Assembly: GCA_030037495.1 (NCBI GenBank)
Contig: JASHRG010000030.1
Location: 1 to 64,000, forward strand
Length of the DNA stretch: 64,000 nucleotides
Direction of reading: 5' to 3'
DNA from: Microcaldota archaeon
GTDB lineage: Archaea; Micrarchaeota; Micrarchaeia; Micrarchaeales; Micrarchaeaceae
The notes under the pieces are model-generated. The model did not search any database, was not told the DNA's origin, and worked only from the letters and a program-made list of their open reading frames with translations. Below, piece after piece: positions 8,840 through 62,580 of this stretch. Position numbers and translations under genes: made by a program. Positions within the stretch are counted from its first letter, which is position 1. The number at the start of each line of letters is the position of its first letter.

Positions 8840-10147
8840 TTAGTCCGCCCTGAGAAGCCTGAAATTTCTTCCTGAATATAGTGCATGGGTTTCAAGCTCT
8901 ATCTCCGCCAGTCTATTGTACTTTGCGGTTCTCTCAGACCTGCTTGAGCCTGCCTTTAGATGCCCCAGCCTTGCTCCTACTGCGAAATCGGCGAGGAAGG
9001 TGTCCTCGGTTTCCCCGCTCCTGTGGCTTCCGAATACGCCCCAGCCAGCGCTTCCTGCAATGCCAACCGTTTCAAGGGTTTCTGAAACAGTACCTATCTG
9101 GTTCAGTTTTATCAGGACGGCATTGCCCGCCTTCTTCCTTATTCCCATGCGCAGTCTTCTTGGGTTTGTGACATATATGTCATCACCTACAACCTCAACC
9201 TTCTTCCCGATCCTTGATGTCAGTCCTGCAAACAGCTTAAATCCGGATTCATGGTGTGGGTCCTCCAACAATACCACAGGATAGCTATCAACGTACTCAA
9301 GATACAGCTTATCAAGCTGGGCTGGCGTGAGTATTCTTGACTTCTGCGCCTCTTCTGCCTTTAGCTTGAAGTCAAGGTTATATCTACCGCCCTTGTAGAA
9401 CTCCGACGCGGCTGCGTCTATGGCTATGGCTACCAGCCCACCATGACCGGCCCTTCTTATGGCTTCTGCCAAAAGTTCCAGCGCCTCAACCCCGTCCTTG
9501 ATGTTTGGCGCGAAGCCGCCCTCGTTGCCGACATTTGTGGCTCCAATTCCGTATTTCTCCTTTATGACCTGCTGTAGCTGCTGGAAAACCTCGGCAGCAA
9601 TCATCATGCCTTCAGCAAAACTCTTGGCCCCTACCGGCGCAATCATGAATTCCTGCATAGCCAGTCCGTTCCCCGCGTGGATTCCCCCGTTTATAACATT
9701 CAGAAAGGGAACCGGAATCACGAGTTTGCTTGCTCCTCTCAAATCAGCTATGTGCGTGTAAAGCTGCACTCCTTTTGCAGCTGCACCTGCCCTGCACACC
9801 GCCATGGATACGGCAAGCGTTGCGTTTGCGCCAAGCCTGCTCTTATTGGGAGTGCCATCCAACTCCACGAGAGCCGTATCTATAAGCTCCTGGTTTGCGA
9901 CATCAAGGCCTGTAATCGCGTCAGCAATCGGGCCCTCTACGTTTGCCACCGCTTTTAGCACGCCCTTGCCATTGGCTCTTGACCTGTCGCCGTCCCTGAG
10001 CTCAAACGCCTCATGGCTTCCTGTCGATGCGCCGCTGGGCACCATTGCCCTGAACTTGCCGTCATAAGTCCGCACTGTTGCCTCCACAGTCGGGGTCAGC
10101 CTAGAATCAAACACCTCTCTCGCCTTCACGCTTATTACTTTTGCCAT
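8840..10147 (-). CDS. eno: Enolase
   Basis: VFDSRLTPTVEATV, GASTGSHEAFELRDGD, VGDDIYVTNPRRL, LIKLNQIGTVSET, SHRSGETEDTFLADFAV. Confidence 0.95.
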   Translation of the reverse strand: MAKVISVKAREVFDSRLTPTVEATVRTYDGKFRAMVPSGASTGSHEAFELRDGDRSRANGKGVLKAVANVEGPIADAITGLDVANQELIDTALVELDGTPNKSRLGANATLAVSMAVCRAGAAAKGVQLYTHIADLRGASKLVIPVPFLNVINGGIHAGNGLAMQEFMIAPVGAKSFAEGMMIAAEVFQQLQQVIKEKYGIGATNVGNEGGFAPNIKDGVEALELLAEAIRRAGHGGLVAIAIDAAASEFYKGGRYNLDFKLKAEEAQKSRILTPAQLDKLYLEYVDSYPVVLLEDPHHESGFKLFAGLTSRIGKKVEVVGDDIYVTNPRRLRMGIRKKAGNAVLIKLNQIGTVSETLETVGIAGSAGWGVFGSHRSGETEDTFLADFAVGARLGHLKAGSSRSERTAKYNRLAEIELETHALYSGRNFRLLRAD

Positions 10148-10268: not shown

Positions 10269-10475
10269 GTGAGTCACTTTGATCAAATGCCTGGCAAGGA
10301 AGTTGAAGTAATGACTGCAAAGTTTGCAATGGACGGCAGGATTCGCTTGCCTGCCAAGGCAAGGGAAGCTTTAGGAGTGGTGCCCGGGGACGTGCTGGTG
10401 TTCTTCCTTAGGAGGGATTCCAAAGGAATCGGATACCTGGAGGTCAAGGCGCTGAAGCACATCGCAAGAATGTAA
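10269..10475 (+). CDS. AbrB/SpoVT-type DNA-binding protein
   Basis: AKFAMDGRIRLPAKAREALGVVPGDVLVFFL. Confidence 0.75.
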   Translation: MSHFDQMPGKEVEVMTAKFAMDGRIRLPAKAREALGVVPGDVLVFFLRRDSKGIGYLEVKALKHIARM

Positions 10476-10477
10476 TA

Positions 10478-10549
10478 AGCCCGGAGAGGGAATTGAACCC
10501 TCAACCTTTAGTTTACAAGACTAACGCTCTGCCATTGAGCTACCCGGGC
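10478..10549 (-). tRNA. tRNA-Thr (anticodon UGU)
   Basis: GCCCGGG/TCCGGGC acceptor; TTAGT-CTTGTAA-ACTAA anticodon arm; GGTTCAATTCC T arm; no encoded CCA. Confidence 0.93.
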
Positions 10550-10581
10550 ACGAGTTTAATTATCGTGTAAATATTATATAA

Positions 10582-11628
10582 ATGCCTTCTCTTTCTGCCT
10601 TAAACACTAGTTCTATAAACTTTAATAAACAAGACTACTTGATGAACGACAATATGGTAGCTAATGCAATAGAAATCAGGGATGTGCGCAAGACATTCAT
10701 TACATACGAGGGCGAATCCCTCGGATTGCTAGCCATGCTTATGAAGAAAAAGACAGAGAAGAGGGCGCTGAAGGGAGTCTCTTTCAATGTCAAAAAGGGC
10801 AGCATAACAGCTCTGCTTGGCAAGAACGGCTCCGGAAAGTCCACTATGATAAAGCTTCTTGTAGGGATCATGCCTCCTGATAAGGGCACAGTGAGGGTAC
10901 TTGGAATGGATCCATGGAGGGACAGGATAAAACTGGCTAGGCATACTGGGGTTGTGCTTGGCGCGCATCCATCCATGTTTGTTGACCTTCCAGCAATACA
11001 GAGCTTCGACTACATGAGAAGGATATACAAGGTGCCAAAGAGGGAATTTGAGGAAAGACAAGAGCACTTCATAAGAATGCTAGAGTTAGAAGAAGTGGCA
11101 AAGCGAAGGCAGGTTCGTGAACTTTCCCTAGGGGAAAAGATGAAGTGCAACTTTGTTGCTGCAGTGCTACACAACCCTGAATTGATAATACTGGATGAGC
11201 CTACAATCGGAGTTGACCTTCCATCAACTCTTAAGATAAGAAAGGCTGCGCTAGAGCTGCAGAAAAAGTACGGGGCAACATTCCTTATAGCAACGCACAT
11301 ACTTGAAGACGTGAAGGTGCTTGCTGAAAATGTTGTGATAATGGACCAGGGAAACATTGTTTTCAACGACTCGAAGAGCAGGCTTGGCAGACTATTCGGC
11401 AATTACAAGATGGTAGAGATATACTTCACAAAAGGGGCAAAGATGAATTTCAGTGAACTTGGAACTATTGTGGATAAGCGTGAGGCCTATGTAAAGCTTA
11501 GGATAAAGGGCGGCAAGGGCAAGGATAAGCTCCTAACCCAGTTTCTAACAAAGAAGGAGGTAATAGACTACAATGTATCTACTCCAGAAATAGGCGACGT
11601 GATGGGCAAGTTCTATTCAGAGAGGTGA
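10582..11628 (+). CDS. ABC transporter ATP-binding protein (ABC-2 exporter)
   Basis: GKNGSGKST Walker A, ELSLGEKMK signature, LIILDEPTIGVD Walker B. Confidence 0.9.
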   Translation: MPSLSALNTSSINFNKQDYLMNDNMVANAIEIRDVRKTFITYEGESLGLLAMLMKKKTEKRALKGVSFNVKKGSITALLGKNGSGKSTMIKLLVGIMPPDKGTVRVLGMDPWRDRIKLARHTGVVLGAHPSMFVDLPAIQSFDYMRRIYKVPKREFEERQEHFIRMLELEEVAKRRQVRELSLGEKMKCNFVAAVLHNPELIILDEPTIGVDLPSTLKIRKAALELQKKYGATFLIATHILEDVKVLAENVVIMDQGNIVFNDSKSRLGRLFGNYKMVEIYFTKGAKMNFSELGTIVDKREAYVKLRIKGGKGKDKLLTQFLTKKEVIDYNVSTPEIGDVMGKFYSER

Positions 11629-41426: not shown

Positions 41427-42782
41427 CTATGGCTCCAGCCTGTTCATTGTTCTTGGGAAAGGAATAGCATCCCTTATTGTCTCAAGCTTGAGCATCCACC
41501 TGCAGAGCCTCTCTGAACCCATGCCAAACCCTGAATGGGGAACGCTTCCATACTTTCTTAATTCAAGATACCATCTGTAGTCCTTCTCCTTGAGCTTTTG
41601 CTCCTTGAGCCTTCTTACCAGTTCATCATAGCTCTCAACCCTTTCGCTCCCTCCAAGTATCTCGCCTATCCCCTCAGGAGCAAGCAGGTCAGAGTCAAGC
41701 ACTGTTCTTGGGTCCTTTTGGTTTATCTTCATGTAAAATGCCCTCATCTCCTTTGGCTGGTTTACCAAGAATGTCGGCTGCTTCCTCTCTTTCATCAGCG
41801 TCTTCTCCTCGTCAAGGCCTATGCTGTCCCCCCACTTCAGACCAAGCTCCTTGAGCGCCTTCTCGTATGTCATCTTCTCAAAAGGCCCCTTTATCGCAAG
41901 CAGGTCTTTTGGGTCCCTGTTGTACTTTTTCAATAGCTCGGGATGCTTCTTTGCCATCTGGTGGCATAGGTGCTCAACCAAATCCCCCATGAGCCTCATG
42001 TTCATCTCAAAGTCAAAGAATGCCTCCTCAGGCTCAAGCTGCCAGAATTCTGTTAAGTGCCTTGGCGTCCTGCTAGGCTCTGCCCTGAAAGATGGGGCAA
42101 ACGCATAAACAAGAGGGTATCCCTCTATCATCGCCTCGCTGTAGAGCTGCGCTGTCTGTGAGAGATAGGCCTTCTTGTCAAAGTATTTTACCTCAAAGAC
42201 CGTGGATCCGCCTTCAGCAGCAGATGATGTGAACATAGGAGGCTGCACCTCAAGGAATCCCATGCCATCAAGGAAGCTCCTTGCCTCCTGCATCAGATAG
42301 GCCTTGAACCTCAGCACATTCACTATGTGCTGTGATCTCACCCACAAATGCCTCACATCAAGAAGGAACTCTGTGCTCTGGTCCTTCCCTATAGGGAACG
42401 CGTCTCCCCTGAAATAGGTAACAAGCTCTTTTGCCCTTATCTCGTAGCCATCAGGGGCCCTTTCGTCCTTGGCAACCGTGCCATGAGCATAAACCACTGA
42501 TTCAAGGAACACGTCGTTCGCGTCCTTCCAGGTCTTTTCCGTGACATCGTCCTTTTTCACAGCGCACTGCACTATCCCCGTGCCGTCTCTTATTATGACA
42601 AAGGCGAGGTTTGTGCTCGCCCTTTGTCTATGCACCCATCCCCTTACAAAGACCTCTTTTCCAACATGGTCCCTAAGGTCTGAGATCTTAGTTATTCTGC
42701 TCTCGCTCCTGGAAAGCGTGTCCTTGAGCAGTTCATCGAGCTTTAACATCAGATTACCAAAAAGCCATGGGTTAATCGGCAA
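41427..42782 (-). CDS. asnS: Asparaginyl-tRNA synthetase
   Basis: OB fold VRGWVHRQRAS, GLGxSERLCRWM-type motif 3 (GFGMGSERLCRWML), APEGIGEILGGSERVESYDEL. Confidence 0.9.
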   Translation of the reverse strand: MPINPWLFGNLMLKLDELLKDTLSRSESRITKISDLRDHVGKEVFVRGWVHRQRASTNLAFVIIRDGTGIVQCAVKKDDVTEKTWKDANDVFLESVVYAHGTVAKDERAPDGYEIRAKELVTYFRGDAFPIGKDQSTEFLLDVRHLWVRSQHIVNVLRFKAYLMQEARSFLDGMGFLEVQPPMFTSSAAEGGSTVFEVKYFDKKAYLSQTAQLYSEAMIEGYPLVYAFAPSFRAEPSRTPRHLTEFWQLEPEEAFFDFEMNMRLMGDLVEHLCHQMAKKHPELLKKYNRDPKDLLAIKGPFEKMTYEKALKELGLKWGDSIGLDEEKTLMKERKQPTFLVNQPKEMRAFYMKINQKDPRTVLDSDLLAPEGIGEILGGSERVESYDELVRRLKEQKLKEKDYRWYLELRKYGSVPHSGFGMGSERLCRWMLKLETIRDAIPFPRTMNRLEP

Positions 42783-42859
42783 GCAGCCTATTAAACATTC
42801 TGTATAAAGGAAAAGCCAAGCTTTAATACTTTTTACACAAGATATATTTTACTTGTTTT

Positions 42860-42932
42860 GCGATCGTAGTCTAGCCTGGTAGGACGTTGCCTTGCCAAGG
42901 CAGCAGCCCGGGTTCAAATCCCGGCGGTCGCA
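42860..42932 (+). tRNA. tRNA-Gly (anticodon GCC)
   Basis: GCGATCG/CGGTCGC acceptor; TTGCC-TTGCCAA-GGCAG; GGTTCAAATCC. Confidence 0.95.
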
Positions 42933-42996
42933 TATTTGGTTTTACCAGAGTAATCCCGACTGCAACACAATTTTCAAAATACTTTTTGTCGCCAAA

Positions 42997-43009
42997 GGTT
43001 CAAATCCCG
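42997..43009 (+). repeat. Exact 13-bp copy of tRNA-Gly T-arm sequence (GGTTCAAATCCCG)
   Basis: identical to 42911-42923. Confidence 0.55.
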
Positions 43010-43227
43010 CACATTTCGCTTTTATGGAAATTTCGCTTTTCGATAACAATAAGATCGAAACCGAGGGTTCAAAATCTAGAACTCATCCTTGCGCTTAAAA
43101 CGTATTCTCCTCAGGATATACATCCGCATCGCTAGAAAATGTTCATATGCTGTGAGCATCTCTTCATAACATTTAGATATGATAACTATAGAAATCATTA
43201 AATATCTTTACGAATAACATAGTTAAT

Positions 43228-44511
43228 ATGGAATATATTTATAGGATTCTATTAGACGATATAAAGAGATGGGTCGATCGCAGAGAGATAATGGCGATTA
43301 GAGGCCCTAGGCAAAGCGGCAAAACTACACTCCTGCGAATGCTGATCGAATGGCTACAAAATGAACACGATGTAAGTAAGGATCGCATAATCTATGTAAC
43401 ATTTGAGGACAGAGAACTCCTTGACAGCTTTACCATAGATCCAATCGGGTTCATAGAGAGATACGCTCCTGAAGATGGTAAGTATTACTTCATCATCGAT
43501 GAGGCACAATACTGCAACAAGTTAGGGGAGAATCTCAAGCTGATATACGATACGAAGGAAAACATAAAACTGATAGTAACAGGCTCGTCATCGCTAGAGC
43601 TTACCGCACAGACTGGCAAATTCCTAGTAGGCCGCCTTTTTGAATTCGAATTGATGCCGCTAAACTTTTATGAGTTCCTAATAGTAAAAGATAAAGGATT
43701 GGCGTCGATTTTCCAGAGGGAACAGCTAAAATTGCTAAACCTACTTTCAGGTACTAAAACTCCCGCCACTAAAAGTAAAGGCGCGTTCATCGGTGAAATG
43801 CTCGAGTATCTAGACGAATTCGTATCTTTTGGCGGTTACCCTGAGGTTGTGAAGAGTCGAAGCGATAAAGAGAAGAACATTGTGCTCAAAGGAATAGTGA
43901 ACACCTATATCGAGAAGGATGTTCTCTCGTACCTGCACATAACCGATACGATAAAATTCAGAAAACTGATCACTCTCCTTGCCGCTTCAAATGGCACCAT
44001 GCTAAAAATAGGCGATATTGCAAGCCAGATAAGCAGCTATTTCAAGGAAGTAGAAAAATTACTTAATATACTGGAGCAGACATACGTTCTGAGCTTGGTG
44101 AGGCCCTATCATAAAAACTTAGTAACAGAGTTGAGGAAGAATCCAAAAATCTACTTTATGGACACTGGTCTACGAAACTATCTCGTCAGTGATATGAACT
44201 CGCTAGGGAAAAGGCAAGATGCAGGAATCCTGGCCGAAAATTTTGTCTTAAATGAGCTCAGACAGAAAGTTAAGCTGAATTATTGGCGCACAACGTCAAA
44301 AACAGAGGTCGACTTTGTAACAAACAGAACGGATCCGATTCCGATTGAAGTCAAGCTCAGCCACTTTCAGAAGGAAGTCGTAACAAAAAGCATGCATGGA
44401 TTTCTTGGTCCATACAAGTCGAGGTATGGAATAATCGTAACAAAAGATTTCTGGGGCCAGAAGAAGATTGGCAAATCAGAAATAAAGTTCGTACCGATTT
44501 GCTACATATAA
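43228..44511 (+). CDS. AAA ATPase with DUF4143 C-terminal domain
   Basis: IRGPRQSGKTTLLRMLIEWL Walker A, YYFIIDEAQYC, C-terminal KTEVDFVTNRTDPIPIEVK. Confidence 0.88.
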   Translation: MEYIYRILLDDIKRWVDRREIMAIRGPRQSGKTTLLRMLIEWLQNEHDVSKDRIIYVTFEDRELLDSFTIDPIGFIERYAPEDGKYYFIIDEAQYCNKLGENLKLIYDTKENIKLIVTGSSSLELTAQTGKFLVGRLFEFELMPLNFYEFLIVKDKGLASIFQREQLKLLNLLSGTKTPATKSKGAFIGEMLEYLDEFVSFGGYPEVVKSRSDKEKNIVLKGIVNTYIEKDVLSYLHITDTIKFRKLITLLAASNGTMLKIGDIASQISSYFKEVEKLLNILEQTYVLSLVRPYHKNLVTELRKNPKIYFMDTGLRNYLVSDMNSLGKRQDAGILAENFVLNELRQKVKLNYWRTTSKTEVDFVTNRTDPIPIEVKLSHFQKEVVTKSMHGFLGPYKSRYGIIVTKDFWGQKKIGKSEIKFVPICYI

Positions 44512-60217: not shown

Positions 60218-60469
60218 ATGGTAAAGACAACGATAAACCTGAATACCGAAATCTATAGGGACCTGGTTAACGAGGCTGTCGAAAAGTACGGGTCAACAAA
60301 AACCCTTTCGAAGCTTATAAATGAGAAGCTGAAGAAAAGGAGGGGAGCAAGCCAGGATATAGTAAAGAAGAGCGCTGGTATCTGGAAGATAAAAGAAACA
60401 GGATACGAGTACACAAGGGGCATCAGGCAAGGCTCAGAAGCGAGGTTGAAAAGGGTTTATCATGGATGA
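60218..60469 (+). CDS. VapB-like antitoxin (copy 1)
   Basis: VKTTINLNTEIYRDLVNEAVEKYGSTKTLSKLINEKLKKRR; overlaps PIN gene. Confidence 0.7.
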   Translation: MVKTTINLNTEIYRDLVNEAVEKYGSTKTLSKLINEKLKKRRGASQDIVKKSAGIWKIKETGYEYTRGIRQGSEARLKRVYHG

Positions 60470-60845
60470 GCTGGTTTTTGATACCGATATAATAGTAGAC
60501 CATTTAAGAGGAGCCGACAAGGCAACCGCCCTGATAGAGCAAGTGAAGACGGGTGACATAATCGGCAGGATATCAACCTTGACGGAGGCGGAACTCTTTG
60601 CAGGTAAAGACTCTGAAGATTCGGAAAAACGTGCCATACTATCAGAACTTTTGACTTTGTTCAATAAGAGCGATGTCGATGGTGTTGTCGCAAGGATAGG
60701 TGGAGAATTTAAGAGGAAATATGGCATAGGGTCAGCCGATGCGCTAATAGCAGCCACGGCATTTACTACCCGCAGCAAGCTCCTAACGCGAAACCTGAGG
60801 GACTTCAAAAAGGTGAAGGAGATCATTGTAGATGCCCCGTACTAG
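60462..60845 (+). CDS. vapC: PIN-domain VapC-like toxin (copy 1)
   Basis: LVFDTDIIVDHLRG, TEAELFAG, GSADALIAATAF, LLTRNLRDFK. Confidence 0.88.
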   Translation: MDELVFDTDIIVDHLRGADKATALIEQVKTGDIIGRISTLTEAELFAGKDSEDSEKRAILSELLTLFNKSDVDGVVARIGGEFKRKYGIGSADALIAATAFTTRSKLLTRNLRDFKKVKEIIVDAPY

Positions 60846-60917: not shown

Positions 60918-60989
60918 GGCCTTAGTGGTGTAAAGGCAGCACGGAAGGCTGTGGACCTTCAGGACCGGGTCCGATTCCCGGCTTAGGCC
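60918..60989 (+). tRNA. tRNA-His (anticodon GUG)
   Basis: encoded G-1 opposite C73; GAAGG-CTGTGGA-CCTTC; T arm CCGGG-TCCGATT-CCCGG; one T-T mismatch in acceptor stem. Confidence 0.92.
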
Positions 60990-60990
60990 C
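60978..60990 (+). repeat. Direct repeat, left copy (tRNA-His 3' end)
   Basis: CCGGCTTAGGCCC identical at 62568-62580. Confidence 0.75.
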
Positions 60991-61011
60991 TTTGCATTCA
61001 GGTTCGGTTCC

Positions 61012-61788
61012 CTAATCTTGTTCTAGAATGCGGAGTATCTTTTGTGTACTCTCCATCCGGTCTTGACCATTCATCTCTGCCATTGCCGCTTTAAGCAATG
61101 TCGCAGGAATGTATTTTTGAGGTGTGCCTGCAATTCCAACAAATGGAACGTCGGCAACTTTATTCTGATCATAATAAGCTACAACGCTTTGCATAAATTT
61201 GCTATACTGATAACCATAAAGGAACACTGGCCGTACTCCATCGCCATCGACCCTGAATAATGTAGCTCTTTGCTCATCAGTTAGAAAAGGGAGCGACTCA
61301 GCTGATAAGTCCACAACCAGTCCGGTTTCTGTATTTATTTTTCCTGGCGCTCTTGCCCTCTCGGGAAAGCCCTCATGAATTTTAACAGCCCCTGGCATCG
61401 CCCTTATTAACACCCGTTCTGTTGATGCTATGATTTCGCATTTCTGCAAATCTACGGAAAGCGCAACGTCGGAGCGTCTGCCAAGCAGCTCCCCCATTAT
61501 CTCTGTAGATAAGCTAGAAACTTCAAACTCCCAAGTTCTACCAAAACTATCTTTTTGATCATCGACCACATTTCTACCGTCCCAGGTTCTACCAGGAGCA
61601 AGATACACTGCTAATGTCCTTGTAAGATAAAAGCCTGTCAACTCAACTTGCCTACCTGATCCGATCAATGATAAGCGAAGCTCGGTACTACTTGGTATGA
61701 CGCGACCCTGTTCTTTTGCAGCCTTAACGGCATCTAGTACAGTGGCAGTATACCTCTCAGAAGAAAGCACTATATTCTGTGCCCTCAT
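61012..61788 (-). CDS. Hypothetical protein
   Basis: ORF 258 aa, within tRNA-His islet, no family recognised. Confidence 0.55.
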   Translation of the reverse strand: MRAQNIVLSSERYTATVLDAVKAAKEQGRVIPSSTELRLSLIGSGRQVELTGFYLTRTLAVYLAPGRTWDGRNVVDDQKDSFGRTWEFEVSSLSTEIMGELLGRRSDVALSVDLQKCEIIASTERVLIRAMPGAVKIHEGFPERARAPGKINTETGLVVDLSAESLPFLTDEQRATLFRVDGDGVRPVFLYGYQYSKFMQSVVAYYDQNKVADVPFVGIAGTPQKYIPATLLKAAMAEMNGQDRMESTQKILRILEQD

Positions 61789-61975
61789 ATGCGCTACAGA
61801 TATGATCTCACAACGTAGTAGTTAATTTCATAATATTTATACTTTATTTTTACTTACAAAATACTAGCAAAACCTTGCGTTTTTGCACCTACGCTGACCA
61901 GTGTCAGTCTCGTAGGAAGGGCTTGGGCTGGGAAGCTTTATATAATTAAAGCCCCACTTATTAACAGGCGATACC

Positions 61976-62134
61976 ATGGAAATGAAGAAAGTAGTCGTGG
62001 AAGTACCTAAGAAAACAAAACCAAAAGAAGTCAGGGCGATTGTGAAAAGGCTCTTCTCCTTCAACGTAAGCAAGTACTACGCCAAATCGAAAAATTTTCC
62101 AATGGTACGTGTTAAATGGCAGCTATCTGCTTAG
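61976..62134 (+). CDS. 52-aa VapB-like antitoxin (copy 2)
   Basis: MEMKKVVVEVPKKTKPKEVRAIVKRLFSFNVSKYYAKSKNFPMVRVKWQLSA*; overlaps PIN gene; TATA-like TTTATATAA upstream. Confidence 0.5.
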   Translation: MEMKKVVVEVPKKTKPKEVRAIVKRLFSFNVSKYYAKSKNFPMVRVKWQLSA

Positions 62135-62511
62135 ATACAGACATTGTTGTTGACATAATACGCGGAAAGGGTATACTATCCGATTACATATCAGCCACTT
62201 CTGGAGGCACATGCACGACCTCTATAACTATGCTCGAGCTCTATTACGGAGCATATAAATCAAGTAGACAGGGCGACGTAGCCCTGGTCGATGCGCTAAG
62301 TGCTGACTTGGCGATTATCGATATAGGGTATCAGGACATGAAGCTGGCTGGAAGGATTATGGCAGAACTCGAGAAACAGGGTAAAAAGCTCGAATTCAGA
62401 GATGTTCTTATAGGTACGATTTGCATTAACAGAAGGATCTCTATCCTAACAAGAAACAGGAAGCATTTTAGAAGACTAAAAGAGTATGGCCTTGTTATCG
62501 AAAGTATATAG
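62116..62511 (+). CDS. vapC: PIN-domain VapC-like toxin (copy 2)
   Basis: ICLDTDIVVDIIRG, TMLELYYGAY, FRDVLIGTICINRRISILTRNRKHFRRL. Confidence 0.88.
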   Translation: MAAICLDTDIVVDIIRGKGILSDYISATSGGTCTTSITMLELYYGAYKSSRQGDVALVDALSADLAIIDIGYQDMKLAGRIMAELEKQGKKLEFRDVLIGTICINRRISILTRNRKHFRRLKEYGLVIESI

Positions 62512-62567
62512 CATCACAAAACATATATAATGTATATCTTTTAGGAATCGGAATCATTTTCCTATTG

Positions 62568-62580
62568 CCGGCTTAGGCCC
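62568..62580 (+). repeat. Direct repeat, right copy of tRNA-His 3' end
   Basis: CCGGCTTAGGCCC. Confidence 0.75.

Follow-up and report, generated by a model that had tools for sequence, protein, structure and literature searches.

Bacteria have cassettes that are inserted at a tRNA gene and bounded by repeats of its 3' end, termed additive flexible genomic islands (PMC4119200, PMC7771536, PMC10872708). They have been reported in Alteromonas (PMC4119200), Ca. Actinomarinales (PMC7771536), and Ca. Methylopumilus (PMC10872708). In the last of these hosts, the cassettes measure 330 bp to 42 kb, and the repeats correspond to the last 20 bp of tRNA-Lys (PMC10872708). The archaeal integrated mobile genetic elements (iMGEs) are inserted by tyrosine integrases at tRNA 3' ends and have short att sites (PMC6563490, PMC8371274). 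The median att length is 17 bp in thaumarchaeal iMGEs (PMC6563490), and the att site of SNJ2 is confined to the amino-acid attachment end of the tRNA (PMC8371274). Islander, a main catalogue of tRNA islands, requires an integrase (PMC4383910), and integrase-free units therefore escape it.

The cassettes described here, from an order of Micrarchaeota, resemble the additive islands in their tRNA target, in the direct repeats of the tRNA 3' end, in the stacking of variable cassettes, and in the very small size of some of them. They differ in belonging to an archaeal (DPANN) order and in having repeats of mostly 11 to 13 nt. Nearly all of the Micrarchaeota units span 0.5 to 1.65 kb, usually hold one gene or one toxin-antitoxin (TA) pair (VapBC, HicBA, or AbiE), and are free of an integrase. 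Moreover, additive cassettes make up one island, whereas those of Micrarchaeota are spread over at least eight tRNA species. The archaeal iMGEs encode an integrase and are larger (2.6 to 98 kb for cryptic elements), in contrast to the islet studied here, which is 1.6 kb long and has none. Integron cassettes, including those of archaeal integrons (PMC9668308), are also compact one-gene units that form tandem arrays, carry TA cargo, and have their recombinase outside the cassette. However, they recombine at attC hairpins, whereas the islet is bordered by tRNA 3' ends, and no array-borne recombinase was seen beside its target. Tycheposons, as presented in PMC10872708, are likewise tRNA-associated cargo elements with tyrosine recombinases, but they are described there as recombinase bearing and 4 to 200 kb long, as opposed to the far smaller islet without a recombinase. 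In the open-access literature searched, we did not come across any account of cassettes with one gene or a TA pair and no integrase at many tRNAs of DPANN archaea. Cassettes at tRNAs are already known from bacteria; what appears to be new is their integrase-free one-gene/TA variant in DPANN archaea.

The window, the whole 64-kb stretch of DNA that was analyzed, belongs to a draft Candidatus Micrarchaeota MAG (G000; 870 kb in 44 contigs, 93% complete). An intact tRNA-His(GTG) gene, the target and attB side, lies at 60919 to 60990 on the positive strand (ARAGORN; Rfam RF00005, E 2e-8). The exact 13-nt sequence CCGGCTTAGGCCC is found at its 3' end (60978 to 60990) and again at 62568 to 62580, as the earlier note had stated, and the window contains no third exact copy. 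In a repeat search, the direct repeat of the tRNA 3' end widened to 19 of 21 positions, giving a left copy at 60970 to 60990 (attL core) and a right copy at 62560 to 62580 (attR core), both on the positive strand; the final base of tRNA-His is the common end of the two. From the repeat positions, and by analogy with the borders of the AbiE cassettes of relatives (see below), the inserted unit runs from 60991 to 62580, or 1,590 bp with one repeat copy counted. The islet thus has the arrangement that characterizes tRNA islands, an intact tRNA with a displaced 3'-end fragment at the distal border. It stands in the window as a single unit. As had been claimed, no integrase is present: a profile search found no PF00589 match inside the islet, which would consequently be passed over by Islander. 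The sole PF00589 match of the draft genome lies on a different contig, beside tRNA-Asn.

Between the repeats lie a gene for a 258-aa protein on the negative strand (61012 to 61788) and a toxin-antitoxin module on the positive strand. About 30 nt upstream of the module, at 61937 to 61947 on the positive strand, the sequence reads TTTATATAATT, a TATA-like motif and a probable archaeal promoter. A 52-aa reading frame (61976 to 62134, positive strand) overlaps the gene for a 131-aa VapC-like toxin (62116 to 62511, positive strand), which has the PIN domain expected of a VapBC toxin (PF01850, E 1.7e-10). The best NCBIfam model for this protein is a tRNA(fMet)-specific VapC (E 8e-18, below the model cut-off), and a further VapC model, likewise under its cut-off, gave an E value of 2e-12. 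The 52-aa frame had no antitoxin family match in Pfam, PHROGs, PADLOC, or NCBIfam and is presumed to be VapB by position only. Of the gene content originally proposed, the reading frames and the PIN-domain VapC were thus borne out, with VapB assigned from its place upstream of vapC. A second VapBC-like pair is located at 60218 to 60845, upstream of tRNA-His and outside the islet; its VapC (60462 to 60845) shares 29% identity with the islet VapC.

The same build recurs at other tRNA-His loci, which were taken from relatives (Candidatus Micrarchaeota MAGs) in two families of the order. In 78 tRNA-His loci, an end-anchored direct copy of the tRNA 3' end was present in nine genomes. Besides G000 (13 nt, at +1590; the 258-aa protein and the VapBC-like pair), these encode HicBA in G007 (13 nt, +638; HicA, E 3e-17), a geranylgeranyl-reductase-like protein in G015 (12 nt, +1308), AbiEi/AbiEii in G043 (35 nt, +1319) and G107 (28 nt, +1308), an ice-binding-like protein in G119 (16 nt, +1640), and a 194-aa protein of no stated family in G131 (13 nt, +767). 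G127 has three units in tandem, with copies at +789, +1818, and +2413; between them they carry a peptidase S51, an SDR reductase, and a nucleotidyltransferase-like protein. The unit of G129 (13 nt, +8988) is the only one at these nine loci with an integrase. In block-shuffled downstream DNA of the 78 loci, 0.33 end-anchored matches of 11 nt were found and none of 12 nt or more. A U5:U68 mismatch in the acceptor stem of tRNA-His was considered as a mark of a captured 3' end and rejected: it occurs in 3 of 9 loci with a cassette and 22 of 69 without one and is common in the order. In seven genomes (L058, L062, L064, L066, L070, L071, and L074), tRNA-His has a short T-loop intron and was missed by ARAGORN.

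Over all fetched loci, we searched for end-anchored copies of the tRNA 3' end of at least 11 nt within 3 kb downstream, with upstream DNA serving as the control. The loci contain 194 distinct tRNA genes, 75 for tRNA-His and 119 for other tRNAs. A copy was present downstream of 19 of the 194 (8 of 75 and 11 of 119, respectively) and upstream of none; real upstream DNA, 491 kb in all, gave no such match. Counted by length, the downstream and upstream matches numbered, respectively, 0 and 1 at 9 nt, 1 and 0 at 10 nt, 6 and 0 at 11 nt, 4 and 0 at 12 nt, 5 and 0 at 13 nt, 1 and 0 at 15 nt, and 5 and 0 at 16 nt or more. Matches of up to 8 nt were at background level. The gap at 9 to 10 nt and the peak at 11 to 13 nt point to a core of fixed minimum length, since mutational erosion would give a smooth tail. 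The profile thus fits a recombination core rather than drift. Repeats of 28 to 44 nt also occur within the class. The repeat ends vary slightly (offset, −1 to +4), which is expected of chance extension and is no proof of one enzyme.

About 590 kb of the 870 kb of G000 were read for tRNA cassettes, and four further ones were found there. They are located at tRNA-Arg(gcg) (a 13-nt copy at +516; a DUF5518 membrane protein), tRNA-Pro(tgg) (an 11-nt copy at +1087; a 336-aa protein of no stated family), tRNA-Gln (a 12-nt copy at +1468; a VapBC pair, with VAPB_antitox at E 8e-14 and PIN at E 2e-12, plus a 156-aa protein), and tRNA-Leu(cag) (a 44-nt copy, 98% identical, 689 bp away; a VapBC-like pair, AbrB-like and PIN-like by eye). 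The VapBC-bearing islet therefore belongs to a class of units that is found at several tRNAs of G000 and across the order. In relatives, cassettes are also stacked: three in G127, two at tRNA-Ser of G113, and one behind an integrase element in L252. The EEP nuclease of a tRNA-Ser cassette in G037 is 43% identical to a protein whose gene lies immediately past the tRNA-Arg cassette of G000, a hint of a link across targets.

The genomes are mostly draft MAGs, and ARAGORN may have mislabeled tRNAs that contain introns. Two tRNA-Glu cases, with 26-nt repeats and, in one of them, a gene-free interval of 206 bp, may represent tRNA pseudogenes instead of cassettes. In single genomes, a chimeric assembly at 13-nt repeats is unlikely, and the recurrence of cassettes in many genomes guards against it. 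Within the window, a T-arm-like sequence, GGTTCAAATCCCG, lies at 42997 to 43009, 76 bp past tRNA-Gly, where no tRNA was called; the region is possibly an unrecognized, intron-containing tRNA.

The DNA following tRNA-His differs among relatives. A conserved gene on the opposite strand, encoding TPR plus an AAA ATPase, comes directly after tRNA-His in G017, G021, and G036. In other relatives it lies 0.4 to 4.8 kb away, and the intervening genes differ in nearly every genome. In G000 the distance is about 4.4 kb, the ATPase gene being found beyond the islet, an STT3-like gene, and two small genes. The variable interval, together with the direct joins between tRNA-His and the ATPase gene, identifies the site as a hot spot with a recognizable empty state. 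The earlier note had named conservation of the gene order and of the second 13-mer in distant relatives, with no empty site, as evidence against an insertion; what we found instead is an interval that changes in almost every relative.

For the islet itself, the relatives gave no alignment across an empty tRNA-His site. The closest relative, G003, has the tRNA end in one copy within 12.9 kb and lacks the islet, but its right flank is not syntenic with the window, and its STT3-like homologue ends another contig. Because the right flank differs from that of the nearest relative, we infer the insertion of the G000 islet from its repeats and its class. For the AbiE cassettes, the empty state is explicit: in G104, of the same genus as G043, tRNA-His joins the DNA that follows the second repeat in G043, with an alignment (80% over 935 bp) that begins 6 bp past the tRNA. 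Compared with each other, the G043 and G107 AbiE cassettes show 77% identity over precisely the stretch that runs from the tRNA to the repeat end, and the likeness stops at the right repeat. Site-specific insertion is thus well supported for the cassette class. It might still be argued that nothing was inserted, that the genes are ordinary residents, and that the second 13-mer either matches by chance or has a function as a tRNA-like 3' end, given that the 13-mer is short, its right flank has no syntenic relative, and the assembly is a MAG. Such an account has to contend with 19 downstream against 0 upstream copies, with shuffles that yield none of 12 nt or more, with the empty site and the precise borders of units in relatives, and with post-tRNA-His genes that differ in nearly every genome, and we find it scarcely credible.

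Tyrosine integrases of the order adjoin tRNA-His, -Glu, -Asn, -Thr, -Ser, -Pro, -Arg, -Trp, and -Val. Integrase elements of 7 to 9 kb occupy the tRNAs used by cassettes, and their repeats are equally short (11 to 15 nt). The 9-kb element at tRNA-His of G129 has its integrase at the start and the 13-nt copy at the end; at the tRNA-Ser locus L252, an 8.6-kb integrase element (11-nt copy) is followed by a 1.65-kb integrase-free cassette (12-nt copy). A Diapherotrites element has a 15-nt copy. The elements of G129, G052, and L252 are of the archaeal iMGE kind.

Integrase-bearing elements are found at tRNA-His in G126 and G052 as well as in G129, and the islet could accordingly be a remnant of such an element, eroded to its ends, VapBC, and one gene, with the TA pair having blocked the last deletion. 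Deletion is favored in small genomes, TA modules resist loss, and VapBC can ride on integrase-bearing archaeal elements (PMC6563490). The size distribution tells against erosion: among repeats of at least 12 nt, 18 are found at 0 to 3 kb, none between 3 and 8 kb, and one, integrase bearing, at 9 kb, and hence intermediates are absent. Moreover, many cassettes consist of just one gene that is not of the TA kind (ice-binding protein, SDR, peptidase S51, or DUF5518), with both ends of the reading frame near the repeats, and the three tandem one-gene units of G127 would require three independent near-total erosions. We regard the remnant explanation as unlikely, although worth keeping in view. The earlier suggestion of a minimal integrated element that lacks an integrase and has a TA pair agrees with everything tested, the decayed form of it being less favored than a discrete mini-cassette.

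Casposons are known to insert at tRNA 3' ends with target-site duplications of about 14 to 15 bp. The repeats could in principle be duplications of this sort, produced by a Cas1-type casposase or by some other transposase with a preference for tRNA 3' ends; that length is close to the 11 to 13 nt seen here, and the cassettes lack an integrase. However, no Cas1 (PF01867) was found in G000 or other genomes of its genus, the islet ends have no terminal inverted repeats, and the class includes repeats of 28 to 44 nt. Tyrosine-integrase elements at the same tRNAs yield equal repeat lengths, and a transposase origin appears very improbable. Shared targets and repeat lengths make it the simplest account that the integrases of autonomous elements act on the cassettes in trans. 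The sole integrase of G000 is at tRNA-Asn, not tRNA-His, and a tRNA-His helper, if there was one, is therefore now absent. No viral contigs encoding tRNA-His integrases were found.

The 258-aa cargo protein had been taken as being of no known kind. It had no match in Pfam, PHROGs, PADLOC, or NCBIfam, and comparison with a viral fold library gave nothing solid, but it has about 14 detectable relatives, including proteins of G007, G010, G040, and G059, and these connect it to the variable proteins of diversity-generating retroelements (DGRs). The G007 homologue is a DGR target. Its complete DGR (contig C17; L110:9158-11469) comprises a 91-bp variable repeat (VR) in the 3' part of the gene (9795 to 9885), a template repeat (TR) 498 bp further (10293 to 10383), and an adjoining reverse transcriptase (10417 to 11469; RVT_1, E 9e-19), and 18 of 19 TR/VR mismatches fall at template A. 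A structure model of the 258-aa protein (pLDDT 84) gave, as the highest-probability Foldseek match among those listed, 5ioo, a Nanoarchaeota C-type-lectin DGR protein. This match is weak (probability 0.63, TM 0.37 to 0.45, E 0.11), and a C-type-lectin-like fold is suggestive only. Judged by the homologue that carries VR, TR, and reverse transcriptase, the 258-aa protein is a divergent relative of DGR target proteins. No TR for the islet gene region at 61100 to 61300 was found in G000; we assign the cargo, by homology, to the DGR-target family and do not claim its diversification. The homologues do not generally adjoin tRNAs, and the gene family itself is thus no marker of cassettes.

Several further DGR features were observed in these genomes. 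G059 (L103-L108) has at least 10 paralogues of the DGR-target-like family scattered through its genome. On contig C15 of G000 (L256, around 42351 to 43385), a DGR with local VR/TR and its own local target directly adjoins the tRNA-Leu cassette with the VapBC-like pair, and its reverse transcriptase is 65% identical to that of G007. The reading frame of the DGR reverse transcriptase is broken near residue 136 into two neighboring frames in G005, G011, G013, G019, and L252:17335-18415, possibly by a recurrent frameshift or a programmed event.

Taken together, we consider it probable that the islet is a mini-cassette directed to a tRNA gene, that a tyrosine integrase provided in trans inserted it, and that its TA pair keeps it in place. 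Such a cassette would enter in the form of a small circle bearing a single att core of some 11 to 13 bp, made up of the 3' strand of the acceptor stem and the last T-stem bases. A tyrosine integrase from autonomous tRNA-targeting elements of the same archaea would recombine the circle into the tRNA 3' end, restoring the tRNA and leaving the former end as the distal repeat. VapBC would then retain the cassette, in that excision would lead to loss of the labile antitoxin and free the RNA-cleaving toxin; alternatively, VapBC may serve in defense. The partner gene would be the cargo, in the islet putatively a lectin-fold protein of the DGR-target family. More tentatively, and with rather less than even confidence, we propose that Micrarchaeota have an integron-like cassette economy without integrons, in which one-gene or TA cassettes with tRNA 3'-end cores of 11 to 13 bp are captured and stacked at many tRNAs through the trans action of integrases from unrelated resident elements.

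The end-anchored rule (at least 11 nt, 3 kb downstream) is a simple search tool, returning 19 downstream and 0 upstream copies in these genomes. Its results suggest that cassette traffic in Micrarchaeota is widespread and largely unnoticed. Ultra-small archaea have reduced genomes and yet varied accessory genes, and how they gain these is poorly known. If our reading is true, TA pairs would be minimal mobile units in their own right, and integrase-free cassettes bounded by tRNA ends would provide a concrete route of gene gain, one hidden from island finders that require an integrase.
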